Source: Terriglobia bacterium (GTDB lineage: Bacteria; Acidobacteriota; Terriglobia; 20CM-2-55-15). Taken from it: a DNA stretch of 42,640 bases. The position numbers and the translations under genes were made by a program. The notes beneath the pieces were generated by a model. The model saw only the letters and a list, made by a program, of their open reading frames with translations, had not been told where the DNA came from and made no database searches. Within the stretch, counting starts at the first letter, position 1. Each line of letters begins with the position of its first letter. Below, in pieces: positions 8,529-41,923 of this stretch. The stretch lies in contig DASXLG010000159.1 in NCBI GenBank assembly GCA_036496425.1, positions 1 through 42,640 of the forward strand, read 5' to 3'.

Positions 8529-8616
8529 AAGGGGGAGGAACCACAAGAAGCACAAAAGGCACAAGAAAGGCCCGCCTTTCTCGTGCCTTTTGTGCTTCTT
8601 GTGGTTCCTTCCCTTA
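8529..8616. repeat. Dispersed hairpin repeat, family A (copy 2)
   Basis: This is the best preserved copy: the two arms are nearly perfect complements over about 40 bp, each made of three 9-nt units (CACAAGAAG, CACAAAAGG, CACAAGAAA) plus a GGAGGAAC or GGAAGGAAC end. The right arm runs into the TTA that is the stop codon of the minus-strand methyltransferase gene, so in that mRNA it forms a hairpin right at the stop. Confidence 0.9.
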
Positions 8617-11388: not shown

Positions 11389-11509
11389 TTTGCACAAAAG
11401 CGCCGATTTCAACATGGTGTGTGAGCGACCCCCTGCCGGCCGCTTCGCGGCCGGCTCTCCCCCTGTATCAGGGGGAGAGTGGACTGTCACAAGTCGTCTT
11501 GAAATCGAT
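11389..11509. repeat. Dispersed hairpin repeat, family B (copy 1)
   Basis: A composite palindromic element: outer arms related to CGATTTCAA...TGTGA (11404-11422 and around 11488-11507), inner hairpins GCCGGCCGCTTCGCGGCCGGC and CTCTCCCCCTG/CAGGGGGAGAG. It begins 7 bp after the tannase stop and lies between convergent genes. It matches 33306-33461, and its outer tail is also at 16750-16789. Likely a REP-like element that may also serve as a transcription terminator. Confidence 0.85.
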
Positions 11510-13488: not shown

Positions 13489-13566
13489 GAGGGGAAGGAA
13501 GCACAAGAGGCACAAGAACTACGGTTTTTCTTGTGCCTTTTGTGCTTCTTGTGCTTCCTTCCCTCC
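13489..13566. repeat. Dispersed hairpin repeat, family A (copy 3)
   Basis: The same GGGGAAGGAAGCACAAGA-type palindrome as at 1210 and 8529. Here the left arm has lost one 9-nt unit relative to the right arm, showing that the element changes by units of nine. It lies 52 bp after the peroxiredoxin stop and upstream of the next gene on the same strand, whose open frame it extends artificially. Confidence 0.85.
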
Positions 13567-27122: not shown

Positions 27123-28001
27123 GTGCTGCTCCTCTATCTTATGCTGCTTTCCCGGCTCCTTTGGGCGCCTGCGGCGGCCAACGACCGGCTTCAGCGCGCC
27201 TTCGACGACTCGATGAATCGCCGGAACGGAGCCGCCGTCGCGCTCGACGTCGAGACCGGGCGGGTACTTGCTTCCTATCATATGGATGTGGCGGCCCGCC
27301 GCCTCGTGCCGCCAGGATCGGCCATAAAACCTTTCACGCTGATGGCTTTGATGGAGGCCGGCCTGGTTCAGGAGCATACGGCGCTGTTTTGCCCGCGAAA
27401 GCTCCGGATCGGAACCCACGTCCTCGACTGTTCGCATCCGGTCAGTCCGGATCCGCTCGACGCCGTCCAGGCTCTGGCCTACTCGTGCAATCACTTTTTC
27501 GCTACGCTGTCCGGTCGACTTCCGTTGAACGCGCTACCTCAGGAGTTTTCCGGTATGGGATTGGGCTCTCTGACCGGCAAGTGGGGCACGGAATTGCCGG
27601 GCGTCGTCGAACAGCCTCCATCCACGCAAGCGATGCAACTCATGGCCGTCGGAGAAGAAGGCATTCAGGTGACTCCCCTGGGTCTGGCCGAAGCCTACCG
27701 CCTGCTGGCACGTCCTTTAAGAGAATCTCCAATCCCAACAAGCGAGCTTCAACTCGTATTGAAGGGCCTCGAGGCCGTCGTGAATTCCGGAACTGGACAA
27801 GCCGCGAGCTCCAGGTATGTCCAGGTCGCCGGCAAGACCGGGACCGCCGGCGGCCACGCATGGTTTGCCGGGTTCGTCCCGGCCGAAGCCCCCGAGATTG
27901 TCATCGTGGTGTTCCTCGAACACGGAACCGGGGGAGTGGATGCGGCCCCGATCGCCGGCCGCGTGATCAACAGTTATTATGCCGGCGGAAAGGCGCCATA
28001 A
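27123..28001 (+). CDS. Minimal penicillin-binding transpeptidase
   Basis: A 292-aa protein with an N-terminal signal/anchor and a bare transpeptidase domain. The three catalytic motifs are present: SxxK as S66-A-I-K69 in PPGSAIKP, SxN as S121-C-N123 and KTG at 238-240 (AGKTGTAGGHAWFAGF). It lacks the N-terminal dimerisation domain of classical class B PBPs, so at about 292 aa it is half the usual size. It should cross-link peptidoglycan or act as a carboxypeptidase or beta-lactam sensor. It is the first gene of the six-gene block, 3 bp before the SpoIID gene. Start is GTG 27123; ATG 27141 is an alternative. Confidence 0.85.
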   Translation: MLLLYLMLLSRLLWAPAAANDRLQRAFDDSMNRRNGAAVALDVETGRVLASYHMDVAARRLVPPGSAIKPFTLMALMEAGLVQEHTALFCPRKLRIGTHVLDCSHPVSPDPLDAVQALAYSCNHFFATLSGRLPLNALPQEFSGMGLGSLTGKWGTELPGVVEQPPSTQAMQLMAVGEEGIQVTPLGLAEAYRLLARPLRESPIPTSELQLVLKGLEAVVNSGTGQAASSRYVQVAGKTGTAGGHAWFAGFVPAEAPEIVIVVFLEHGTGGVDAAPIAGRVINSYYAGGKAP

Positions 28002-28004
28002 ACC

Positions 28005-29045
28005 GTGAGCCGCCGTTTCTATCTGTGCCTGTTACTCCTGGGGACATTCTTATGTTTGCCCGCTTCGCAACAGGCGGCCTTGAGTCTGCCGGACACCGTT
28101 CGGGTCCGCCTGTTCTCGACGACCCAGCCCTCCGAGCTTCGCCTGACGACTGCCGGCGGAGAGAGCATCCTTATCAATGCCCGTCAAACAACGCTTCCCT
28201 TCCGGAGTGCGGGTCCCGTCACGATTCAGACCGTCGGTGGTAAACCGATCCGGCTTCAGTATCCTCTGGAGATTACGGCCGACCACGGTGTTCTGGTTAT
28301 CGTCAATGAGATCCCGTTCGAAGAGTATGTCGCTGCCGTCCTCGCCGGGGAGTCTCTCAGTTTCAAGTCGGATGAATCGTTGAAGGCGATGGCCGTCGCC
28401 GTGCGGACCTATGCCGCGCATTTTCTGAACCGCCACCAGCGGGAGGCTTTCAACTTCTGCGATACGACGCATTGCCAGGACTTTCGCATCACGGCCGTCA
28501 CGGAACGGCTGCGCAAAGCTGCCAACGATACCCGCGGGGAAGTTCTGCTGTACGACTCCCAGCCGATTACCGCCTATTATCACGAGGATTGCGGCGGGAT
28601 TACCGAAGCTCAAGGTCCATATCTGCAACAGCTGAAAGATCCATTTTGCGTTTCCCGCGGCAGGAAACAGTGGACGGCCGAATTGACTGCTGCGGACATC
28701 CAATCCGTTTTCGGCCTGAGCGGCGCAACCGCGATCGAGATCGCCGGGCGAACCAATTCGGGGCGGGTTCAAAAACTCCGGATCACAGGTAATGAGACGC
28801 GGGTCATGACTGCGGAGGCGTTCCGTCTGGAGTTCGGCAGGAAACTCGGCTGGGACAAGATCCGAAGTGATCTCTACGAAATTCACAATTCCGAAGGCCG
28901 GTTCCGTTTTGATGGATTCGGCGCGGGACACGGTATCGGGTTATGCCAGGACGGAGCGGCCGTCATGGGCGAGCAAGGGTTCACCCATCAACAGATTCTG
29001 GCTTATTACTATCCCAACACGCAGCTCACACGCCTGGGTATCTGA
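28005..29045 (+). CDS. SpoIID/LytB-domain exported protein
   Basis: A 346-aa exported protein starting at GTG, 3 bp after the transpeptidase stop. After the signal peptide the SpoIID/LytB domain has IPFEEYVAAVLAGE (Glu116 is the expected catalytic acid of the SpoIID glycosidase), ALKAMAVAVRTYA-type helix (LKAMAVAVRTYA), and the C-terminal GFGAGHGIGLCQDGA and YYPNTQL. SpoIID cuts denuded peptidoglycan glycan strands as a lytic transglycosylase; related LytB proteins modify cell-wall enzymes. No sporulation is implied in this phylum. With the adjacent transpeptidase it suggests local peptidoglycan remodelling. Confidence 0.88.
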   Translation: MSRRFYLCLLLLGTFLCLPASQQAALSLPDTVRVRLFSTTQPSELRLTTAGGESILINARQTTLPFRSAGPVTIQTVGGKPIRLQYPLEITADHGVLVIVNEIPFEEYVAAVLAGESLSFKSDESLKAMAVAVRTYAAHFLNRHQREAFNFCDTTHCQDFRITAVTERLRKAANDTRGEVLLYDSQPITAYYHEDCGGITEAQGPYLQQLKDPFCVSRGRKQWTAELTAADIQSVFGLSGATAIEIAGRTNSGRVQKLRITGNETRVMTAEAFRLEFGRKLGWDKIRSDLYEIHNSEGRFRFDGFGAGHGIGLCQDGAAVMGEQGFTHQQILAYYYPNTQLTRLGI

Positions 29046-29062: not shown

Positions 29063-30991
29063 ATGCGAGAGAAGCTGCGCTGGACAGTTCCAATCATTCT
29101 GGCAGTGGTAACGGGTGTTGCCCTCGTCTCGATTGTCCGCGCCCGGCGCGCCATCGAAGAAGCGCGGGCCGATGTCACGCGGTCCGCGATCGCGTTCGAT
29201 GTGCATCCGTTCTCGGCTTCGAGGCCGGCGATGATCGATCCTTTGCCCGCGCCCCCGGATTTCCGCGCCGCGCAATTCTTCCATAACTCACTCTATATCG
29301 CGGGTTCAGGCGGGCTTTGGATATACGATCTCACCGGAAATCTTCAGAAGACCTATGAAACCGGGCTCGATCTGCCTCCATCGCCCTTGGTTGCCGTGGC
29401 TGTCGGGACGGTCGCCGGCGACGCGGAGCCGAAGCTTTGGCTCGCGACGGCAAATGCAGGCATCCTTTCGTTCGACGGGGAGCGGTTCTCGCAAATCCGC
29501 CTTCAGAACAATGGATTGGTGAGGGGCCTGGGAAACCCCACATCCTTATTAATCCTGCCCACAGGACTTCTGCTGATCGGCTTCTCTGAAGGCGGCGTCA
29601 TCCGGTACGACGGCGCGACCCTTGCGCCGCTCCATCCGGACCTTCGAAACATCCCGGTGACGGTTCTTGCCGGAACCGAGGGAGACCTGTGGGTTGGAAC
29701 TCGCGATCGTGGAGTCATGCACCGGCAAGCGGGGACCACGGAAATATTCCAGGACCAGACGGGTCTTCAGGACAATCGCGTCCTCTCGATAGCGGTGTTC
29801 GGAGAGCGGGCTTTCGTTGGAACGCCGGTCGGCGTTACGGAATTCCAGGACGGAAAGCCGCTCCGCAAACTTGCCGATGGCATCTTCAGCCAATCGCTGC
29901 TGGCGGCCGGCAACAGTCTGTTCGTGGGAACGGTCGACGCCGGCATCGTCGAGGTCCGTCTTCAGAACGAACGGCCGCAAGCCTTAATTCCGGCTTCGGA
30001 CTTGGAGCCGCGCGCGGTCCGGCATTTTATGGAGGCTGACGGGAAGGCTTTCGCGCTGACTGCCGGCGGTCTTTTTGAACGCGAACCTGGCGCCGGGGTA
30101 TGGAACCGGCGCATCAACATTCCCGGGTCGCGCTGGACCGACCGCAACATCTCGGCCTTGTCGGTCGATCCGGACGGCAGGCTGTGGATCGGCTACTTCG
30201 ACCGTGGCATCGATATCGCCGGGACGGACGGCAGCCTGAATGTCACCCATGTCGAAGACGATCAGATCTTCTGCGTCAACCGCATCGTCCAGGACTCCTA
30301 CCGGAACATGACCGTCGTCGCTACAGCGAACGGGATCGCGCTGTTCAATCCCCAGGGCAAGATCTTGAAGCGGATACGCGAAGCAGACGGCCTCATCTCT
30401 AACCACGTCAGTGATGTCGCTGTCCGGGCGGACGGGCTCGCGGCGGCGACGGCGGGTGGCGTGACATTCCTGGACGCTCGCGGCCCGGAGTCCATCTACG
30501 CATTTCACGGCCTGGCGAATAACCACGTTTACACGCTCGGGCTGAACGGTTCGCAGTTGATGGCGGGGACGCTCGGCGGGTTATCTGTTATCGAAGACGG
30601 TTTTGTCCGTAAGAGCTATACAACGGCCAATTCCCAGTTGAAGCAGAACTGGATTACGGCGGTCGTCCGGGTGAATGACTCCTGGTTTATCGGCACTTAC
30701 GGTGGTGGCGTAATGGAGCTTGATTCCCATGGACAGTGGTCCGAATTCCCGGATTTTCCGGCTCAAATCGTGGTTAATCCGAACGCTATGCTGGTGGCCG
30801 GCAATCATGTCCTGGCCGGAACGCTGGATCGCGGACTGTTTGTCTATAACATCCCGGACCACCGCTGGACTCCGATGACGGACGGGCTCCCTTCGTTAAA
30901 CGTGACGGCACTGGCCCAATCCTCGGGCAATCTCTTTATTGGAACGGACAACGGCATCATTCGAATGCCGATCGAAAGGCTTACTCCATGA
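29063..30991 (+). CDS. Beta-propeller (reg_prop-type) protein
   Basis: A 642-aa protein with an N-terminal membrane segment (about residues 8-24, VPIILAVVTGVALVSIV) and an extracytoplasmic region made of repeated propeller blades, as in two-component regulator propeller domains: LWLATANAGILSFDG, LWVGTRDRGVMH, LWIGYFDRGIDI and FIGTDNGIIRM. It has no histidine kinase or other output domain, so it is probably a periplasmic binding or assembly platform rather than a sensor kinase. GAGGAG at 29052-29057 is 5 nt before the ATG. Its TGA overlaps the next ATG (ATGA), so translation of the VIT/VWA gene is coupled. Confidence 0.85.
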   Translation: MREKLRWTVPIILAVVTGVALVSIVRARRAIEEARADVTRSAIAFDVHPFSASRPAMIDPLPAPPDFRAAQFFHNSLYIAGSGGLWIYDLTGNLQKTYETGLDLPPSPLVAVAVGTVAGDAEPKLWLATANAGILSFDGERFSQIRLQNNGLVRGLGNPTSLLILPTGLLLIGFSEGGVIRYDGATLAPLHPDLRNIPVTVLAGTEGDLWVGTRDRGVMHRQAGTTEIFQDQTGLQDNRVLSIAVFGERAFVGTPVGVTEFQDGKPLRKLADGIFSQSLLAAGNSLFVGTVDAGIVEVRLQNERPQALIPASDLEPRAVRHFMEADGKAFALTAGGLFEREPGAGVWNRRINIPGSRWTDRNISALSVDPDGRLWIGYFDRGIDIAGTDGSLNVTHVEDDQIFCVNRIVQDSYRNMTVVATANGIALFNPQGKILKRIREADGLISNHVSDVAVRADGLAAATAGGVTFLDARGPESIYAFHGLANNHVYTLGLNGSQLMAGTLGGLSVIEDGFVRKSYTTANSQLKQNWITAVVRVNDSWFIGTYGGGVMELDSHGQWSEFPDFPAQIVVNPNAMLVAGNHVLAGTLDRGLFVYNIPDHRWTPMTDGLPSLNVTALAQSSGNLFIGTDNGIIRMPIERLTP

Positions 30992-33298
30992 GGGCCTGGC
31001 TTATCTTCCTGCTCGTTTTGCCTCTGGCCGCGGCGGACTCCGGCGTGCTCGTTCCTGGAAACCGCAATACTCCGGATCCTGCGATCCTGTCTCTGGAAGA
31101 GATGACGATCAACATCGCGATCGACAATGGCACGGCGCGTGTGTCGGTGAGAGAAATCTTTGCGAATCACACGAATCAGAACCAGGAAGGAACGTACAGT
31201 TTCGCTCTGCCGGTCCGGGCGCTGCTTTCGGACTTCGCGGTCTGGGATGAGCTGACCCGAATTCCCGGAGTCATCCTCGAACGGAAGCGGGCCAACGAAA
31301 TCTATGACCAGCTTCGATCGCAAACCATCGACCCGGGTCTCCTTGAAATGGGAGAACGCGGCGCCGAGGAAGCGGCTCGCAGTGCAGAATTCACGGCTAA
31401 AGTCACGCCGATACCAGCGCGAGGGACCAAGCGGGTCGAGATGGAGTACAACGAGCGGCTTCCGGTCGAACAACTGTCCAGCGTATTATCCGTGCCTTTG
31501 AAGCCAGACGCTTATCAGGCGCAGGTCGCCGGACGGCTGGAGATCAATATCAATGTTCTTTCGGACCGGCCGATCCAGACCTTTGAAGGTATCGCCAAGG
31601 CGTATCCGTTAAAGATCGACGAACGCACTCCGAATCGCATTCGGGCGTCTTTTTCCGGCAACCGGGTCGCGCTGACTGAAGATCTCGGCGTCAAGTACAC
31701 TTTCGATCCAGCCACGGCGGATTCACTTCGGGTCCTGACATACCGGAATCCTTCGGATATGCCTGCGACCGGGTTTTTCCAGGTCTCCTCACTCTTCGGC
31801 TCCGGCGCAAATGCTCCGGATGCGGCAAATTCCAATCCCCGCACGGTCGTCCTCGCTTTCGATTCGTCGCTCTCGATGCAGTGGAACAAACTCGACAGCA
31901 GCTTTCAGGCGTTCGAGACGGTGCTGCATGCTCTTCGCCCTCAGGATCAATTCAACGTGGTCCTGTTTAATTCCGATGTATCGCTGTTCGCGACCTCGCT
32001 TCAGCCGGCGACGGCGGATCAAATCGAACATGCCCTCGCGTTTGTAAAGCAAAGCCGCCTGCGCGGCGGCACGAATCTCGGAACAGCGCTGGAACGGGCG
32101 CTGGGGCAGGCAGGCCCGAACTCCTACGTGGTGCTCTTCACCGACGGCGGCGCGACCCAGGGTTCCATCCGGAATTCCAGGCTGCTTTCGGCATTTAACG
32201 CGCAGTGGAACAAGGTTCCGGCCACTCAGCGGCCGCGCATGTTCGTGTTCGCCGTCGGCGATGACGCGAATCTGCCGCTATTGAAGCAACTGGGCAGCGA
32301 TAACGGGGTTTTCGAATGGGCTCGAAGCTCCGAGCCGATTGATTTCAAGATCCAGCAATTTATTGCCAAGATCGGCCGGTATCCGATCTCGTCGCTGCGC
32401 CTTTCGGTCGCGCCTGCTTCGGATACCGATATGGTTTATGCGCTCGAGCCTTCCGTGTTCGGCGGCTCCCAGCAGGTATGGATCGGAGAGTATAAAAAGC
32501 CGGTGTCGTCCGCGAAGTTCACCGCAAGCGGGCAGCGGGACGGCAAGAACCTGACGCTTACCGCGAATGCGCCGCTGCCGGCGGATGCGACCGATCACGA
32601 CTTGCTTCCCCGGACCTGGGCAAAAGGCGCGCGTCGATGCCCTGTTGGAAAAGATCAATCAAAACGGCGAAGACAAGGCATCTATAGATGAAATCATTCG
32701 CCTATCGCGGAAGTACAAGTTCGTCACGCCATACACATCATTTCTCGCCGCACCGCGATCGCTGTTGCGGCCGCGATTGATCCGGCCCGGCGATCCGGTC
32801 CTCCGGGTGAAGACGGATCCGTCGATCCAATCGGTGGTGGCGGTTTTTCCGTTCGGGTTGGTGAAACCGCTGAAGTACCTGAAGGATGAGGATATCTGGC
32901 AGACGCGATTTCTGGCGCCTCCCGACACGCCGGACGGAACGCACGCGGTGGAGCTTGTGCTGCGGGACACGCGCGGCAATGCATACCGCGAACAGAAGAG
33001 CTTCATTATCGCAAGCAAGCCTCCGATCGTCCGGGCAAAGCTGGACCGCGCGAGCTACAGACGGGGCGAAGGGGTGCGGTTGCAGGTCAGCGCTTCAGCA
33101 ACGACACGCACGATCGTGGCGAGAGTGTATGGAGTCGCGCCGGTCCGGCTGACCTGGAACGCCGAAGCGCGGTCCAACACCGGAGAATTTCGAATCCCGG
33201 ATACGCTGCCGGCCGGCCAATACACGCTGACTGTCTCGGCTGAGGACTTTGCTCACAATATCGGAACCCAGGAGGTGAACCTTGTGGTCCTTCCTTAA
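30988..33298 (+). CDS. VIT/VWA-domain exported protein, +1 frameshift
   Basis: Two frames form one protein of about 769 aa. The first (30988-32691) has a signal peptide, a VIT domain (about residues 27-175) and a VWA domain with intact metal motif DSSLS (in LAFDSSLSMQW). The second frame (in phase with 33298) holds the usual downstream part ARVDALLEKIN and KYKFVTPYTSFLA, then a C-terminal beta domain. The join is at AAAAGG (32622-32627): removing one G at 32626-32627 restores TWAK-ARVDALLEKI. It is either a real mutation or a one-base assembly error. VIT/VWA proteins bind partners at the cell surface. ATGA overlap with the propeller gene. Confidence 0.8.
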
Positions 33299-33305
33299 GA
33301 TAGGC

Positions 33306-33461
33306 TTCACACAAAAAGTCGTCGTGAGCGACCCCCTGCCCGCCGCTTCGCGGCTGGCTCTCCCCCTGTATCAGGGGGAGAGTCGCTTGACTGTCCCCCT
33401 TGGAAAGGGGGACAGTCGCGAAGCGGCAGGGGGTCGCTCACACGCCATGTCGAGATCGATT
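33306..33461. repeat. Dispersed hairpin repeat, family B (copy 2)
   Basis: The longest copy. GTGAGCGACCCCCTGCC (33324-) pairs with the complementary GGCAGGGGGTCGCTCAC (to 33442), enclosing the hairpins CTCTCCCCCTG/CAGGGGGAGAG and GACTGTCCCCC/GGGGGACAGTC. The tail CACGCCATGTCGAGATCGAT corresponds to the outer arm of the copies at 11389 and 16750. It sits inside the six-gene block, 8 bp after the VIT/VWA stop, and its tail contains the ATG used by the giant TPR gene. Confidence 0.9.
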
Positions 33462-36400
33462 GTTCGGGTATCCGCGCTGATCGCGCTGCTCGCCCTCACC
33501 GCATACGCCGAAGCCCCCTCCTGGGTCCAGTGGCTGCCGGCAAGCTCGCCTGCCATGGCCATTCTCTACCGTATGGTTCCCTCACTCGCAGGACCGGTAC
33601 CGGTGCGGCGCCCGCCCGCTGAAACCGCGGCTCAACTTGCGCTGATCGGCCTGAGAAATCCGTCCGATACCGAAGTCATCGCGCTCTCGGCGCGGGAGTA
33701 TGAAGCTCAACTCGATTTCAGCAATGCCGAAGCCCGTTGGAAGCTGCTGGACTCCGTCTCTCCGGATCGAGCTGGTAATCAGATCCAATTGGCCGATTAC
33801 TACCATCGCCGCCTGCAACCCGAACCGGAACTGCAGGCGCTGACATCTGCAGAAATGCTTTCTCCTGCGACCGATGACCCGCTGAAGGCCGAAACGGAGC
33901 AGCGCGCCTGGAAATTGCACGAACGCGCACAGCAGTTGATCCAGGCGGAAGCCATGCCCGCCGTCAGCGCAATCCAGGACTATGAATCCTGGATTGCAAA
34001 GTATCCGGCCGCAGAAGCCCTGCAGCGCCGGTACTTCGAATTTCTGTTGAGCAGCGGCATGATCGCCAAAGCCGAAGAGGTCCTGAAACAATACGAGAAC
34101 GCCTTCCCCAATGACCGGTCCTCGATCGTTCACGAACGGGCACGACTTGCCGAAAAGCGGGGCACCAAGGGAGGTGCGATTGCCGTTTACGACACCGCAT
34201 ACGACGCCCTCTGGCCCGAGGACCTGCTCAACGACTATTTCAAGCTGCTCGACGATTCACATCGATCCTTCGAGTTCTACCAGAACGCCCGCCGCGCCGC
34301 GATCAGCCGGCCGCTGGATCTGAACCCGGCGACACGCTTGTTTCACTACTTCCGAAGGCAGGGTGACATGAACGCGGCGCGCCGGGAACTCTCGGAATTC
34401 CGCGCGCGGAAAGAAGCGGCGAAAGCCCAGTGGAAAGCGCCGGAACTGAACATCCTCGCCAGGCTGTCCGACTCGGTGAATGACTACGACGAAACCATCC
34501 GCTATGCCTACGCCTTGTATTCGCTGCCGGGAAGCGACAACGCCTCCGCCGAAGCCGCGGTCGTTGAGATCATCGGTGTGCTGCTGAAGGCTCCGGACCA
34601 GCCGATCCGATTCGGACGAGGGGACTTGTCCTTCTACCATGACATCGCGACGATCGACTCGTCTCCGGGCTTCCTCAACGGCATCCTTTCCCTGGTTTTC
34701 AATTCGCAGTACCCGGACGCTCAGTTCAGGACACAAGAAAGGAAAAGCGAAACTTACTTTCATCGGGCAAAAGCAGCCGAGCTCTATAAGTTACTGTCGG
34801 ATCGCTTTCCGAACGCATCACAGCGTTCCGAACTCCTCTCACGGCTCATCGAAAGCTATGCCGGATATGGAGAGGATGAAGCCATCATCCGGCAAGGGAA
34901 CGCTTTTATCTCCGAGTTCCCCAACGCGGAACAGCGGACAAAGGTTGCGCTCCAGGTAGCGGATGCGTATGCCCGGCGGAAGCAAGTGGCCGACGAACTC
35001 GGCATTTACGACCGCCTGCTGCGCGAACTTGCGGCGAAAGCCCGGCAGGTTCCGCTCGGCAGCGGCCAGCAGCCGCGCTCTCCCGAATATGCCCAGGTTC
35101 TACAGCGGTATCTCTCGCGGCTCAGCCAATTGAATCGGATACCTGAAGCCCTTGCGCTTTACCGCGCCGAAATCGATCGGAATCCCAACGATCCGGGTTT
35201 GTACGATGGACTCGCAGGCTTTCTGGGAGCGCACCAGAGAGCGGGCCAAGTCGAGCAGGTTTACCGGCTGGCGATGCAACGTTTTCAAGACCGGTCGTGG
35301 CGTCAGAAGCTGGCGAGGTTCTATCTGCGCAACCGGATGACCAGCGAGCTTCAGACACTATCCCATCAGATGATCGACACGTTCGCCGGCAGCGACGTCG
35401 AAGCGTATATGTCCGACGTCATCGCGGATCGAGATCTGGAACGCCGCCTTCAGGTCGACATCAACCTGTATGCGCTGAACCGCTTTCCTCACGATCTGAG
35501 ATTCGTCCACAACCTCGTTTCACTCTATTCCGGCGATGCAACGGCGAACCCCACCGCGCTCATGCGGCTGCTCGGAGAGCACTGGTATGACGATGAGAGC
35601 ATCCGGCGGATGTATTTCGAGCGTCTGGCAGCGGCGGGCTCGCTCGACACTGTCTTGCGAACTGCAGCGAATCTGCTGCCGCCCGCAAGCGCGATCAACT
35701 GGCGCGACGCAGAAGCGGCAAACCCGCTCATCACGCGGTTCATCGGAGAAGGTACGGCCTGGCAGTCGCACTTTGAGAGCGCAGCAACCATCATGCAGGC
35801 CGTGGCGGCGGCATACCCGTCCGACGTCCAATTTGCGGGACGTACCTCGGAGTTGTATCGATCGCTGGCGGATTACGACAAAAACCTCACGGCGGTTGCC
35901 GTAGCGATCGCGGAAGATCTGTCGCGCGCGGAACCGCGAGACCGGCAGCGGTTGACGCGCATCGGAGAGATTTACGCCGACCATGACATGCCCGGAGCGG
36001 CTGCGACGGCATGGAAACGGATTCCCGCGATCGAACCCGGCAAACCGGACGGCTATCTCGAAACCGCTACCGTCTTCTGGGATTACCTCCGACCCTCCGA
36101 TGCGCTCGATTGGCTCCGCCACGGACGCGTGCAACTGAAGAATCCAACGCTGTGGTCGTACGAGGTCGGCGCCATCCTCGAGTCGGAAGATCTCCGTCGG
36201 GAGGCCGTCGCTGAATACATGCAGGGGGCGCTGAGCGGTTCCGATAACCGCTCCCGATCCCGCCTGATTGCGCTTGCGCCGCGCCCAAACTATAAGACTC
36301 TGGTTGATGAGCAGACGAAACGGAGGCTCGATGCATCACCGGCAAATCCGGGTGTGCTCGAACTGCGTCTCAGTGTGCTCCGTACCCAGAAACGCAATTC

Positions 36401-39400
36401 CGAAATCGAGCCCCTGCTGGCACAGGCGGCCGCCCACACGTCATCACGCGAACTGCTGCAATATGTCCGGAAGGTCGCAGACGAATCCAGCTTGAAGACC
36501 GTTCAAGCCACCATATTCCGCCGCGAAATCCAACTCGAAACGGATCCCAAGGAGAAATTGCGCCTGGGGATCGAGCTCGCCCGGCTCCTGGAAGCCGGCG
36601 GTGATCTTGCTGCCGGCCAGGCGCAGCTCGACTCTGTTTATCGGGCGAATACACTCATCGCCGGAGTCGTGCGCGCCACGGTGGACTACTACTGGAGGCA
36701 CGACAAACCACGGGCGATTCGTGTGCTGTCCACGGCTGCAGACCACGCGCACCCGGCTCTCAAGAAAGATTACCTCGTCGAAACGATTCATAAATCGATC
36801 GAGGCCGGCGAGGCGGCCGAAGCTGTTCAGGCGGCGCAGCAGCTTCTCCGGATCGATCCGATCGATGGACAGTTTGTGGCGTTGATGGCCGACGCCCTGT
36901 CGGCAGGCGGCAGGCAGGCGGAGATTCAACAACTCTACACGTCGAAGATTTCGGAAATCCAGCAAGCCCAAATCGCGGCGGAAGACAAAACCGATCGCAT
37001 TGCCGCCATGCGCCGCGGTTTGATTCCGGTGTTAACGCGCGAAAATAAATTCCTGGAAGCCATCGATCAGTACGTCGAGATTATCAATCGCTTCCCCGAC
37101 GATACGAATCTTCTGGCGGAGGCCGGACGCTTTGCCACGCAGCACGATTTGCGGGCCCAGCTGATCGATTACTACACGAAGACGTCTGTGAACTCGCCGA
37201 AAGACCCGCGTTGGTTCATTGTGCTCGCGCGTCTTCAGACCCAATTCCGGGATTACCCTGCAGCGATCGATTCGTACGCAAAGGCCATTACCGCGCGCCC
37301 CGAAAGGCAGGATCTGCCCCTTGCCCGGGCGGACCTCGAAGAACGCACGCTGCGATTCGCGGATGCCATCAATACCTACAACCGCGTTTATGAGCTGAGC
37401 CACAGAAATCCAATCTGGCTCGAACACGTCGCAAAGCTTCAGGCGAGACTCGGCCAGAATCGCGAAGCAATCAATACCCTACAACGTGCCTATATCGATA
37501 ACAGGCCGGAACCGGAGCGGCAATACGGAAAAGTCGCGACGATCCTGGAGGAAGCCGGCATGATCGACAATGCCGTGGATTTCATCCAGCGGCAGTCCGA
37601 AGCCAGTGAAGGCTATGTGCGGATCATGGCGAAAGCACGAAGGTACGACGACGCGATTCAACGCGTTTTCGACAACCAGGATATTAATGCCGCGCGCATT
37701 CTTGGAGAGACGGTCGCCACCTACTTCACACCTGAGGAAAGACAGACATTCTCCGCTCGTCTGGAGCCAAGACGGCAAAGAGCCAATCAGGCACAGCGCG
37801 CGCTCCTGATCAATATTGCGAGCGCTGCGCGGCTCTATGATCTCGAGGTTGCATTACGGATGGATGAAAATCCCGGATTTGGCGGCACCTTTGAAGTCCT
37901 GCAGGAACGCCGCATGCGCTTTGCGGAGCTGGCGCGCCAACTCGAGGACGTGGCGGGGCGGTCCGCCGTCGAGGTGAGGCTGAACTTGCTGATGTCCGCA
38001 ATGCGGTCGTATGAAAGAATTGGCGCAACGGCGGACGAGCTTCAATTTTTTGAAAGACATCCCGAACTTCAAGTCAACGCCCAGCAGCGCTACTATGGAC
38101 TTCTGGCGGAACAGCGGCCGGATGAACTCCTGAATGCCGCCGCCCGCTCAGGTCCCGATACGTCCAGCCTGATGGCAACCCAAGCGTTGATTGCGGCCGG
38201 AGATTCGTCTCGCGCCATTCAGTCGATCGAGCGGCAAAGAAGAAGTCCTGTCTGGACGAGCGCCTATACCGGTCTGACCGGCGTGTATTTCGGCTTGAAC
38301 TCCCCGGAAGTGCCGGCAGCTTTCCAGAAAGCGCTGGGCTTGCCTCTGATTCAAGACCGCCTTGGCAAATCCGTCGATCGCAACAGCCAGCTGGCGGGGA
38401 GCATCTGGTTCTATTACGGACAACGGTTCGGCGAGTACCTGCGCAGCGAAAATCAGCCGCAGGCGGCAGACGACTATCTGTGGTCGGAGCTGGAAGCCCG
38501 GCCGGGCGATCCGCAAGCGTACCTGCAGATCGCGAGATATTACCGGCAAACGGCAGCGTCCGAGCGTGCGATCACCGAGTTCGGCCATGCCCTGGAGTTG
38601 AATCCGAATCAGCCGGCGGTTCATTCTGAGATCGCGCTCGTCGAATGGGATGCAGGCCGCCACAACGAAGCGCTGGTGGAATGGAAAAGCGCTTTGGACC
38701 AGCTGGCCAACCGGCCCAATGCGGGAGACGGCGCCCGCATCCTCAGCGATATTCGATCGCGGCAGCAGGAAAGTGTACTGCACCCCGAGATCGACAAAGC
38801 CCTCCGCGCCGCGGCACGCGGGCTGCAAGCCTGGGAATTTCCGCCGCTGCTTCAGGCTGCCTTCGAAGGTTCAACAGACAATCAGGAACTCGTGGATATT
38901 ATCCAGTCTTCACGCGCGCCGAGCCAGTTGTTGATGACCTTGCTGAATCTCAATCCCTCGACTCCATGGCTCTCTGAGACCCAGCAGAAGCTGGTGTTCG
39001 AAACATCGATGAACCTGCTGGCTACGTCTCCGCTTGAACGATTCCAGTACCAGCAAATACGCGCGCAGTATCTGGGATATCTGCTGGACCACGACGATGC
39101 GGCTGGCGCCAGGAAGGTTCTCGATTCTTTCAGCGACGCAGAAAAGCGAGTCGATACCGTGCAAGTCGCCGAACTCCGCCTGGCGGCGATAGAGAACAAG
39201 CTGGCCGATGTCCTCGCGGGCTACACGCAAAGCCCGGCGGAAGCGCCTGCGGATTCGGCGCTGCAACAAACTGCGGAAATTCTCATCCATCTCGGAATGA
39301 CGGATGCAAGTCAACAGGTTCTGGAGTTCCTGTACACCCGGCAGATTGAGAGCTCCGCCAATCCGGCAGCTTATCTGGGCCTTGCGGAAATCCGCGTGAA

Positions 39401-40232
39401 GCGGGGCCATCTCGATCAGGCAACGGATTTACTGACAACGCTCAGCCAGATCGACGCCGTACCATTCGATCATCTCATCGCATCGGCCCGAGTGTTTTCA
39501 GAAAACGCCCATCCCTCAGAAGCACAGCCATTTCTGAAGGTCCGAGTTCAAGCCGTACCGTGGGATTATGAGGCCCGGCTGGAATTGGCAAAGGTGGAAG
39601 CAGCGCTGAACCAGCTCACTCTCGCAATGGATGACCTGCAAAAGATCGTGAGCGCGTCCGCCGCTCCATACGACATTCGAACTCAGGCGGCGCAGGAACA
39701 GGCGAAAAACGGCACGGCGCCGGCGGATTCGACGGGCAGCCGAGAGCTGGACGTCCTCTCCAACAGAACTCCAAGGACAGCTGCCAATACGGATGCTCCA
39801 TTCTTCTTCGCGGCCAGGCTCGCAGCGGCGGAACAGAGCAACGATCCGAACGTGAAAGTGCAATTGCTGCTCAACGCGATCGCCGAACGGCCGGATGACA
39901 TGACCGTTCAACGCTCGCTGTTCTCCGCTGCAATGGCCGCGCGGCAATATCGTGTGGCACTCGCCGTAGACTCCGCCCGGTATCCGCAGGATCCCGAAAT
40001 GGCGGCAGGCGTGGCCGAAGCTCACCAGCAAATCGGGGAATTCGACCAGGCCGTCCGGTTCTACAAAATGGCCGCAGTGCAGGAAAAAGACGCAGGACGG
40101 CGGCAGGCTCTGGAAGCAAAAGAAAAAGAAGCTCAGGCGGCAAACGACCGCAAGATCGAAAACGAACGCCGCCGGCCTGTGATGCGGGCAGACTTCGATC
40201 AACCCAACGTCGTCGGAAGGAGGCTGCCATGA
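33447..40232 (+). CDS. Giant exported TPR-repeat protein (2,261 aa)
   Basis: One uninterrupted frame of 2,261 residues: signal peptide (VSALIALLALTAYAEA), then TPR-like helix pairs almost throughout, with recognisable units such as YLQIARYYRQTAASERAITE and FGHALELNPNQPAVHSEIAL, and a charged coiled-coil-like C-terminus (AGRRQALEAKEKEAQAANDR). No catalytic domain is seen. TPR solenoids are protein scaffolds; at this size it could hold the PBP, SpoIID, propeller and VWA proteins together in the periplasm, which is inference. The frame is open to 33282, but that part is the family B repeat; ATG 33447 precedes the signal peptide although it lies in the repeat tail. The stop overlaps the next ATG (ATGA). 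Confidence 0.85.
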   Translation: MSRSIVRVSALIALLALTAYAEAPSWVQWLPASSPAMAILYRMVPSLAGPVPVRRPPAETAAQLALIGLRNPSDTEVIALSAREYEAQLDFSNAEARWKLLDSVSPDRAGNQIQLADYYHRRLQPEPELQALTSAEMLSPATDDPLKAETEQRAWKLHERAQQLIQAEAMPAVSAIQDYESWIAKYPAAEALQRRYFEFLLSSGMIAKAEEVLKQYENAFPNDRSSIVHERARLAEKRGTKGGAIAVYDTAYDALWPEDLLNDYFKLLDDSHRSFEFYQNARRAAISRPLDLNPATRLFHYFRRQGDMNAARRELSEFRARKEAAKAQWKAPELNILARLSDSVNDYDETIRYAYALYSLPGSDNASAEAAVVEIIGVLLKAPDQPIRFGRGDLSFYHDIATIDSSPGFLNGILSLVFNSQYPDAQFRTQERKSETYFHRAKAAELYKLLSDRFPNASQRSELLSRLIESYAGYGEDEAIIRQGNAFISEFPNAEQRTKVALQVADAYARRKQVADELGIYDRLLRELAAKARQVPLGSGQQPRSPEYAQVLQRYLSRLSQLNRIPEALALYRAEIDRNPNDPGLYDGLAGFLGAHQRAGQVEQVYRLAMQRFQDRSWRQKLARFYLRNRMTSELQTLSHQMIDTFAGSDVEAYMSDVIADRDLERRLQVDINLYALNRFPHDLRFVHNLVSLYSGDATANPTALMRLLGEHWYDDESIRRMYFERLAAAGSLDTVLRTAANLLPPASAINWRDAEAANPLITRFIGEGTAWQSHFESAATIMQAVAAAYPSDVQFAGRTSELYRSLADYDKNLTAVAVAIAEDLSRAEPRDRQRLTRIGEIYADHDMPGAAATAWKRIPAIEPGKPDGYLETATVFWDYLRPSDALDWLRHGRVQLKNPTLWSYEVGAILESEDLRREAVAEYMQGALSGSDNRSRSRLIALAPRPNYKTLVDEQTKRRLDASPANPGVLELRLSVLRTQKRNSEIEPLLAQAAAHTSSRELLQYVRKVADESSLKTVQATIFRREIQLETDPKEKLRLGIELARLLEAGGDLAAGQAQLDSVYRANTLIAGVVRATVDYYWRHDKPRAIRVLSTAADHAHPALKKDYLVETIHKSIEAGEAAEAVQAAQQLLRIDPIDGQFVALMADALSAGGRQAEIQQLYTSKISEIQQAQIAAEDKTDRIAAMRRGLIPVLTRENKFLEAIDQYVEIINRFPDDTNLLAEAGRFATQHDLRAQLIDYYTKTSVNSPKDPRWFIVLARLQTQFRDYPAAIDSYAKAITARPERQDLPLARADLEERTLRFADAINTYNRVYELSHRNPIWLEHVAKLQARLGQNREAINTLQRAYIDNRPEPERQYGKVATILEEAGMIDNAVDFIQRQSEASEGYVRIMAKARRYDDAIQRVFDNQDINAARILGETVATYFTPEERQTFSARLEPRRQRANQAQRALLINIASAARLYDLEVALRMDENPGFGGTFEVLQERRMRFAELARQLEDVAGRSAVEVRLNLLMSAMRSYERIGATADELQFFERHPELQVNAQQRYYGLLAEQRPDELLNAAARSGPDTSSLMATQALIAAGDSSRAIQSIERQRRSPVWTSAYTGLTGVYFGLNSPEVPAAFQKALGLPLIQDRLGKSVDRNSQLAGSIWFYYGQRFGEYLRSENQPQAADDYLWSELEARPGDPQAYLQIARYYRQTAASERAITEFGHALELNPNQPAVHSEIALVEWDAGRHNEALVEWKSALDQLANRPNAGDGARILSDIRSRQQESVLHPEIDKALRAAARGLQAWEFPPLLQAAFEGSTDNQELVDIIQSSRAPSQLLMTLLNLNPSTPWLSETQQKLVFETSMNLLATSPLERFQYQQIRAQYLGYLLDHDDAAGARKVLDSFSDAEKRVDTVQVAELRLAAIENKLADVLAGYTQSPAEAPADSALQQTAEILIHLGMTDASQQVLEFLYTRQIESSANPAAYLGLAEIRVKRGHLDQATDLLTTLSQIDAVPFDHLIASARVFSENAHPSEAQPFLKVRVQAVPWDYEARLELAKVEAALNQLTLAMDDLQKIVSASAAPYDIRTQAAQEQAKNGTAPADSTGSRELDVLSNRTPRTAANTDAPFFFAARLAAAEQSNDPNVKVQLLLNAIAERPDDMTVQRSLFSAAMAARQYRVALAVDSARYPQDPEMAAGVAEAHQQIGEFDQAVRFYKMAAVQEKDAGRRQALEAKEKEAQAANDRKIENERRRPVMRADFDQPNVVGRRLP

Positions 40233-41923
40233 AACGTCTTCGATTTAAGCTCTTCCTTCTTACCGCAGTCGCAGCTGTCGCCGCCGGTGTGTGGACGGTC
40301 GCCCAGGTCCAGCCCTCTCCCCAACCGCTTTCCCGCTGGATGCCGGGAGGCGCGCTGTTCTACCTGGAGTCTGCCGATTTCGCCACGCAACTACAGGATT
40401 GGGATCGCTCGGAAGTGAAAACGCGATGGCTCGCGAGCAAGAACCATGAGCAGTTCCTGACCACGCGGCTTGCGCTCAAGCTCACCGATGCTTACGGCGA
40501 GTTTGCCGCCGCGGCCGGGTTTCCGCCGGATCTGACGGCGCTCGAAACTTTTGCCGGGACGGATACGGCGCTCGCGGTGTACGACATCGGCAAGCTGGAC
40601 CTTATATATATATCGCGGCTGCCCGCCGCCCAACTGGCTCAGAATGCGCTCACTCGCGTTCGTCCCGGTTACCAGGCGAGAACGGTCGCCGGCCAATCGT
40701 ATTTCGTCCGGCAGTCCGGCAGTCGAACGGCGGCGTTTGCGATTAACGGCGACTACGTCATTGTCAGCACGCGTGAGGATTTGCTGTCCGAAGCGCTCGA
40801 ACTCATTCAAGGCAACACCACCACTGGATCTATCAGCAACGAAACCTGGTATCAGGACGCGGTTCGCGCCATGGGGCCGGATGCCGGCAATCGCGTCGCG
40901 CTTCGGCTGGTCATGGACCTGCCCACGGTGATCAAGACGCCGTATTTCCGGTCGTACTGGATACAGAGAAACACCGCGGATCTCCGCCCCTACTCCGCCT
41001 TGTTATCGCAACTGACCCGGCAAAACGGTGTACTTCAAGAGGATCGCGTACTGGTGCGTGCCGCCGCGGCTTCCGCCGCCTCACATGATGCAGCCACGAT
41101 CGAACTCCAACGATTTATGCCGGGCAACGCGGGCCTCATCCGGTTGTGGGACACAACCTCAACGGATTTCGCGATGGATCTCATCCGCGAGAAGTTCTTC
41201 GCCGCGGGACCGCGGCAAGCGGATGAAAGGCGCTTTGCGCCGGCTATAAGTCCGGATGCTTCCGCAAACTCCGAAGGTGATTTTCAGACCCGGATCGATC
41301 AAGCGCCGAAACCGTCTCTTGCCGGAGCTTTGACCCTGCAACCGATGCGCGCACTGGTGGAGTCTGGTGGCATCCAGGCGGTACTGCAGCTGGAATCCAG
41401 TCTGCCTGCGGACGACACCACGTTCGTTCGAACCGACGCGGTCCTTGCGCTTCGCGCATCCAAGTCCTGGAACCCTGCCGATGTCCGATCGGCCCTGACG
41501 GCAGCCGCAGCTTCATATCAGACCGTGAACAACATCGGTTTGCAGTGGCGGAATGTTACGTCGGGAAGCCGTATGTTGTCGCAGTGGGACGGGCTCATCC
41601 CATTGACCATCTATGTTGATGGTCAAACTTTGTGGATCGGAAGAACCGCCGGCTTGCTGGGTTCCGCTCTAAACACCCCCGCCAACACAGGCAACCAGGC
41701 GGCAACTTACCTTGCGCGTTATACGCACAGCGCCGAGCTTGCTCCCTATCTGAAGATGATGCGGATGCTCGATCTTTCGGACCAGGCGAACTACTCCGCA
41801 TTCTTTTCCGACAACATCGGCAGCCTGGCATCAACGCTTGACGTGATTCAATCGGTTTCCATAAAAATCAGCGACAGCGGCCCTGTCCAGCGGCAGGCGA
41901 TACGTTACGATCTCGCGAGATAG
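40229..41923 (+). CDS. Exported DUF3352-like protein
   Basis: A 564-aa exported protein with signal or anchor (FKLFLLTAVAAVAAGVW). The body begins with LSRWMPGGALFYLESADFA and has repeated alpha/beta stretches (LETFAGTDTALAVYDIG, AFAINGDYVIVSTREDLL), a pattern like DUF3352, a family of unknown function often found in surface-related loci; the match is from memory and moderate. Its ATG overlaps the stop of the giant TPR gene by 4 bp, with AAGGAGG just upstream, so it is the last gene of the six-gene block and is translationally coupled to the TPR protein. Confidence 0.65.
   Translation: MKRLRFKLFLLTAVAAVAAGVWTVAQVQPSPQPLSRWMPGGALFYLESADFATQLQDWDRSEVKTRWLASKNHEQFLTTRLALKLTDAYGEFAAAAGFPPDLTALETFAGTDTALAVYDIGKLDLIYISRLPAAQLAQNALTRVRPGYQARTVAGQSYFVRQSGSRTAAFAINGDYVIVSTREDLLSEALELIQGNTTTGSISNETWYQDAVRAMGPDAGNRVALRLVMDLPTVIKTPYFRSYWIQRNTADLRPYSALLSQLTRQNGVLQEDRVLVRAAAASAASHDAATIELQRFMPGNAGLIRLWDTTSTDFAMDLIREKFFAAGPRQADERRFAPAISPDASANSEGDFQTRIDQAPKPSLAGALTLQPMRALVESGGIQAVLQLESSLPADDTTFVRTDAVLALRASKSWNPADVRSALTAAAASYQTVNNIGLQWRNVTSGSRMLSQWDGLIPLTIYVDGQTLWIGRTAGLLGSALNTPANTGNQAATYLARYTHSAELAPYLKMMRMLDLSDQANYSAFFSDNIGSLASTLDVIQSVSIKISDSGPVQRQAIRYDLAR

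Follow-up and report, generated by a model that had tools for sequence, protein, structure and literature searches.

A giant, apparently exported TPR protein in a conserved acidobacterial gene cluster: a candidate periplasmic scaffold

Acidobacteriota abound in soil, and little is known about the biology of their envelope. A stretch of 42,640 nucleotides from a Terriglobia bacterium (contig DASXLG010000159.1 of assembly GCA_036496425.1; hereafter the window) encodes a protein of 2,261 amino acids that a sequence-only reading took for a periplasmic TPR solenoid tightly coupled to its neighbour. What could a TPR protein of this size do outside the cytoplasm, and with which partners? Its gene lies in a conserved acidobacterial cluster that is apparently undescribed; a literature search, with most subscription journals outside its coverage, found no paper on it.

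The TPR gene and its neighbours

The features of the window discussed below are as follows.

27123..28001, + strand: PBP with a single transpeptidase domain, probably exported (Pfam Transpeptidase, E 2e-35)
28005..29045, + strand: SpoIID/LytB-domain protein, a predicted lytic transglycosylase (TIGR02669, E 1.8e-47; Pfam SpoIID, E 3.8e-19)
29063..30991, + strand: beta-propeller protein (Reg_prop repeats, E 2.2e-8) with an N-terminal hydrophobic segment (hydrophobicity 2.83)
30988..32691, + strand: VIT/VWA protein, 5′ part, frame-shifted in the assembly (VIT, E 1.2e-18; VWA_3, E 1.6e-12)
32567..33298, + strand: VIT/VWA protein, 3′ part, in the other frame, with a C-terminal Ig-like segment (Big_13, E 8.9e-7)
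33324-33441, no strand assigned: palindromic repeat element separating the VIT stop from the TPR start (repeat search)
33447..40232, + strand: giant TPR solenoid protein, 2,261 aa, apparently exported (Pfam TPR, relatives, AlphaFold2)
34614..34715, + strand: conserved hydrophobic loop, TPR codons 390-423 (alignment A4; residues 396-423 with pLDDT <50)
40161..40226, + strand: C-terminal tail N..RRP......Q..VV..L, TPR codons 2239-2260 (pattern in 54/62 relatives)
40229..41923, + strand: protein D, 564 aa, N-terminal helix and TP0453-like predicted fold (ATGA overlap with the TPR stop)

Related loci were gathered by scanning a single genome per species, 84,980 species in all, with a VIT alignment, and the best 80 of 115 relatives were kept; 79 of these 80 are labelled as Acidobacteria-type organisms. 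The other, L091, is labelled Betaproteobacteria; it carries a typical acidobacterial cluster with a VIT protein 67% identical to the query, and is suspected to be a mislabelled MAG. Carriers of the cluster include Bryocella elongata DSM 22489 (L097), in which SpoIID was not found, and Bryobacterales F-183 (L094). The propeller, VIT/VWA, giant TPR and D genes are colinear in the 80 loci wherever the sequence reaches far enough. The propeller lies beside VIT in 77/80, the three misses being at a sequence edge; the TPR gene is present in 77/80, with too little sequence on that side in the remaining three; and D is found in 62/80, while in the other 18 the sequence stops inside or ahead of the TPR gene (as read from the table). 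Upstream, no gene family is common to more than four of the 59 loci, and the conserved block is therefore taken to start at the propeller. PBP is present in 48 of the 62 D-bearing loci and is mostly downstream of D, while in the window it is upstream, giving the order PBP, SpoIID, propeller, VIT/VWA, TPR, D. The 14 D loci without PBP comprise six that end too soon and eight that show none, two of them with ~500 nt left. The tight coupling proposed earlier is borne out by a 4-nt overlap of the TPR stop and the D start in 50 of 56 loci, where the D start is the methionine nearest the aligned start; in the window the two share ATGA.

Across 396 Acidobacteriota genomes, D was found in 30, VIT (E up to 1e-100) in 32 and both in 29. 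The corresponding hypergeometric values (2e-39; by genus, with 24 common to 25 and 27, 3e-27) are not true probabilities because the genomes are related. D occurs without VIT in G108, and VIT without D in G217, G373 and G406. Within a set of 44 hand-picked genomes the giant TPR protein was present in 31/31 that have VIT/D vs 0/13 that lack them, and separate TPR searches also matched it in the remaining two VIT/D genomes, G000 and G051. The three genes are retained even where they are scattered. They lie at 1.50, 1.77 and 1.99 Mb on one contig of G140, and the closest two of the three are ~170-180 kb apart in G166 and G206; G434 (L157) has a contig break and was hence not counted as dispersed. 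The propeller, VIT and TPR genes are together in G217, G373 and G406, where the VIT gene of L151 was placed by the VIT profile search of the 396 genomes. A D-sized frame comes next in two of these three, matched by the D profile at E 0.0037 in L152 and without a match in L153. Because the set is co-retained when dispersed, and because of the 4-nt overlaps, these genes are very unlikely to be mere neighbours, and there is good support for a single functional unit made up of VIT, TPR and D. The spread is patchy, with TPR in 8 of 61 near-relative genomes and three of six from the genus of the window, in a search that scored six candidates per genome and may include misses. A gene set kept together even when scattered offers a direct entry point to acidobacterial envelope biology.

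Export and architecture of the TPR protein

The frame at 33447-40232 (+) translates without an internal stop. It is open upstream to a TTG at 33282, from which it would encode 2,316 aa; the ATG at 33447 is taken as the start because 33324-33441 is the palindromic repeat element. Such a long frame is not due to chance: 62 full-length relatives have stop-to-stop frames of 1,982-2,677 codons. Those relatives also mean that its size, thought unusual at first sight, is not so at least among relatives. A TPR search found the protein as the sole match within its own genome. The TPR frame of L021 has a Wzz-like segment (by eye) ahead of it at a contig edge (L021 1-500), possibly in a chimeric contig, and was excluded from the alignments.

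The protein looks exported, as the earlier reading held: the N-terminus, MSRSIVRVSALIALLALTAYA followed by EAP, resembles a Sec signal peptide by eye and has a hydrophobicity of 2.29 over 14 residues. By eye it has no lipobox, and a lipobox-like pattern occurs in just 3/72 frames of TPR relatives. Hydrophobic N-terminal segments are found throughout the cluster, in 64/69 propeller, 67/72 VIT, 67/72 TPR, 56/57 D, 40/47 PBP and 10/10 SpoIID proteins, while the interior controls that pass the same test number 15, 0, 1, 13, 5 and 0, respectively. Set against these controls, the hydrophobic N-termini make all six proteins look exported or anchored, more firmly so for VIT, TPR and SpoIID than for the propeller, D and PBP.

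Is the chain one continuous solenoid, as had been proposed, or a string of unrelated domains? Pfam TPR_19 matches it at E 4e-15 (56.4 bits against a gathering cut-off of 25), and further TPR models match as well. The profile autocorrelation peaks at lag 34, with lags 68 and 102 among the top eight; the 34-residue lag ranks among the strongest for residues 1600-2261 but not for residues 1400-1700. An AlphaFold2 model of residues 1-1190, built from 59 aligned sequences, has a mean pLDDT of 88.9 and a pTM of 0.77. Between residues 57 and 1189 it contains 64 helices (76% helical), with alternate helices 34 residues apart (median), and pLDDT falls below 50 in the signal peptide and residues 396-423. 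The model thus supports one continuous TPR-type solenoid for residues 57-1189, the N-terminal half of the 2,261-residue chain, and in the part covered the prediction gave a single solenoid where separate domains had been the alternative. Pfam and NCBIfam scans found no enzymatic domain in the protein, in agreement with the sequence-only reading. Two other approaches were set aside: an iterated repeat HMM for counting TPR units was overfitted and matched only its three seed sites in the window protein, and a hydrophobic-moment proxy for helices was at odds with the later all-helical model.

Fold searches, made against the PDB with the models of TPR residues 1-1190 and of D, return eukaryotic TPR scaffolds as the best Foldseek matches of the N-terminal half. 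These include an IFT-A subunit (8fgw_D, E 1.6e-14), Ski3, Ctr9, Naa15 and OGT; the TM-score is at most 0.33 among the 50 matches listed, which indicates a resemblance of repeats only. A PDB sequence search with the TPR protein returned OGT and designed CTPR only.

Two conserved elements stand out from the repeats. The first is the loop at residues 390-423, seen in alignment A4, for which 58 of the 62 long TPR relatives were used (L029, L054, L059 and L066 were excluded). D404, P407, G408, N411, S415 and N419 are invariant in its 59 rows, and residues 391-420 are the best-conserved stretch of 30 residues across 14 TPR proteins from organisms outside the taxonomic class of the window. Within the mature chain, the model of residues 1-1190 is nevertheless least confident at residues 396-423. 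The second lies at the C-terminus, where a charged coiled coil had been expected; a charged stretch is found instead, followed by a conserved linear tail. Its residues N2239, R2242, P2244, Q2252 and V2256 are each conserved in at least 90% of 63 rows. The pattern N..RRP......Q..VR occurs in 54/62 TPR relatives vs 2/3,052 other frames of the same loci, and those two appear to be split-off ends of the TPR gene. The eight relatives without the pattern comprise near-variants, by eye, in L044, L070 and L094 and five that look broken or cut. In a slightly looser form the tail was absent from 14 of 15 TPR proteins from organisms outside the taxonomic class of the window and was found in L150, whose contig is as long as that of L041, one of the 62. 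We propose the loop and the RRP tail as the best candidates for docking sites, as we infer from these patterns.

Partner proteins and possible functions

The wall enzymes vary more than the rest of the cluster. The window PBP has the motifs SAIK at 66, SCN at 121 and KTGT at 238, and its relatives retain SxxK in 46/48, SCN in 47/48 and KTGT in 45/48. The SpoIID protein scores 162.6 bits against NCBIfam TIGR02669 (cut-off 83.3) and shares its domain with the SpoIID lytic transglycosylases; two active-site patterns match just 6 and 3 of 15 SpoIID frames, 10 of which are partial. In 20 cluster genomes chosen from the 80, SpoIID is present in 14, one gene each, and absent from six. In 12 of these it comes immediately after D and PBP, and in the remaining two PBP and SpoIID are side by side on another contig. 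Since the pair is variably downstream, elsewhere, absent or, in the window, upstream, PBP-SpoIID is best regarded as a module joined to the core that has at times been lost or relocated. SpoIID is widespread without the cluster (320/396 Acidobacteriota genomes) and was rejected as a co-occurrence marker on that count; given this and its absence from six of the 20, its link to the cluster rests on neighbourhood only. The three distant genomes G217, G373 and G406 each have one frame that is matched by the PBP profile and the SpoIID profile alike (L151 12888-16397, L152 15020-16822 and L153 14466-16331), an apparent gene fusion. The L152 frame shows, by eye, SLQK, SCN and KTGT followed by a SpoIID-like part. 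Pfam sees almost nothing in the three frames (no SpoIID, and a sub-threshold transpeptidase in L152 only), so the fusion rests on our custom profiles. A SpoIID homologue outside sporulation is described as degrading peptidoglycan and localizing to the septum in Chlamydiales, and the SpoIID domain as retained in many non-sporulating bacteria (PMC6635528). The link seen here, of SpoIID to a PBP (apparently fused in three genomes) near a giant TPR protein, is not mentioned in the accessible part of that source.

How might these products work together? NlpI of E. coli is described as a TPR lipoprotein that scaffolds peptidoglycan hydrolases (PMC7049810). It is thus an envelope TPR adaptor that gathers wall enzymes, a role that for the TPR protein here is a proposal. 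NlpI is an outer-membrane lipoprotein, whereas the TPR protein shows no lipobox by eye, has 2,261 residues and is clustered with its proposed partners; NlpI is far smaller. On the best reading, the giant TPR protein may work like NlpI without being a member of its family. We infer a physical complex, its location and its role at the wall: the TPR protein would be the periplasmic scaffold of a peptidoglycan-remodelling complex, a proposal on which we are evenly divided. The exported solenoid would be periplasmic and would bring together what its cluster encodes: the N-terminally anchored beta-propeller, the ITIH-like VIT/VWA protein, TP0453-like D and, in most lineages, the PBP and SpoIID pair, which would cut or trim peptidoglycan locally.

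D points to a different possibility. Its predicted model (pLDDT 86.3, with an N-terminal helix) matches TP0453 of Treponema pallidum (3k8i) at Z 11.7, with 218 of 247 residues aligned, 4.8 Å and 11% identity. This is its only strong fold match: the next family reaches only Z 7.8 (rows with Z <8 were unused), and Foldseek finds TP0453 at E 4.3e-6. TP0453 binds lipids and is associated with the outer membrane. D might likewise be lipid-binding or membrane-inserting, the solenoid would bridge the membranes in trans-envelope lipid or polymer trafficking, and PBP and SpoIID would only open the wall. The lineages in which the wall enzymes are missing suit this reading, as does a weak match of the TPR protein to PEP_TPR_lipo (PrsT, TIGR02917), also a long bacterial TPR protein, at 84.9 bits, far under the cut-off of 312.2 bits. 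Even a common fold with TP0453 would show no function, however; D differs in its N-terminal helix, and with 218 of its 564 residues aligned it could accommodate a further domain. Recurrent gene families are also missing upstream, and we judge trafficking unlikely, if still worth weighing.

The sequence-only reading had called the neighbour of the TPR protein DUF3352-like, and this is not upheld: none of six D members matches PF11832 at E up to 10, and the D gene was not among the matches when 61 genomes were searched with PF11832. Aligned by hhalign with the PF11832-matching proteins, D gives a probability of 4% and E 0.01 over 183 colinear columns, with only four rows on the DUF3352 side. DUF3352 proteins of L105-L108, which by eye have a FecR-like N-terminal part and adjoin ABC transporter ATPase-like genes, are by the tests made a family separate from D; a literature search found no DUF3352 paper. 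A PDB sequence match of D (4bgf, E 0.73) was ignored, and no wall-binding or catalytic feature was seen in D.

VIT/VWA proteins are best known from animals. The bacterial profile aligns to inter-alpha-trypsin inhibitor heavy chains (ITIH) over positions 34-588 at E 1.6e-30, and a DxSxS-type pattern is present in 71/80 VIT frames. The bacterial protein has the same VIT-VWA architecture and adds a conserved C-terminal segment that matches Ig-like domains. Both the alignment and the DxSxS-type pattern speak for a system of surface adhesion or matrix binding centred on the VIT/VWA protein, for which the TPR protein would serve as secretion or assembly scaffold. Such a system would leave PBP and SpoIID unexplained, and Pfam and NCBIfam scans detected no sortase among the cluster genes; we regard it as improbable.

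The presence of VWA, beta-propeller and TPR proteins together could also mark the cluster as a relative of MoxR-vWA-beta-propeller ternary conflict systems or of Bat-type operons, and in G140 the TPR gene has a MoxR-type AAA gene as its neighbour (L155 5094-6083; AAA_3, E 1.3e-65). The ternary systems are defined with a MoxR ATPase partner (PMC7159879). The cluster genes of the window have no MoxR/AAA match, no upstream family recurs and the components look exported, which makes such a relationship very improbable. Least credible of all is that inertia alone has kept the genes side by side and that the TPR protein acts on its own in some unrelated role: many of the loci come from MAG contigs and the position of PBP-SpoIID varies, but co-retention when dispersed and the 4-nt overlaps contradict it.

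The NlpI-like scaffold can be extended to a broader proposal, which we place slightly short of an even chance: a phylum-specific envelope machine, hitherto undescribed, whose complex would be assembled in the acidobacterial periplasm on a solenoid exceeding 2,000 residues, and in which an ITIH-like metal-binding sensor or adhesin would be coupled to a dedicated PBP-SpoIID wall-opening module. If true, this would place VIT/VWA proteins in a bacterial envelope machine.

Irregularities of the window copy

The VIT gene of the window is split between two frames that overlap at 32567-32691 and cover profile A1 positions 1-549 and 547-771. Relatives, including genomes of the same genus as far as their contigs extend, have one intact VIT frame. 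Because of this frameshift the window copy of the cluster may be decaying or mis-assembled. The distance from the VIT stop to the TPR start is 148 nt, most of it the palindromic element, of which a partial second copy lies at 11421-11480 (97% over 60 nt). The TPR frame is open before the VIT stop in 61/62 relatives and also in the window, from 33282. Another dispersed inverted-repeat family, with arms of ~36-40 nt, occurs at 1208-1300, 8532-8614 and 13527-13566, and a perfect 32-nt inverted repeat with a 2-nt gap lies at 305-370 of the window.
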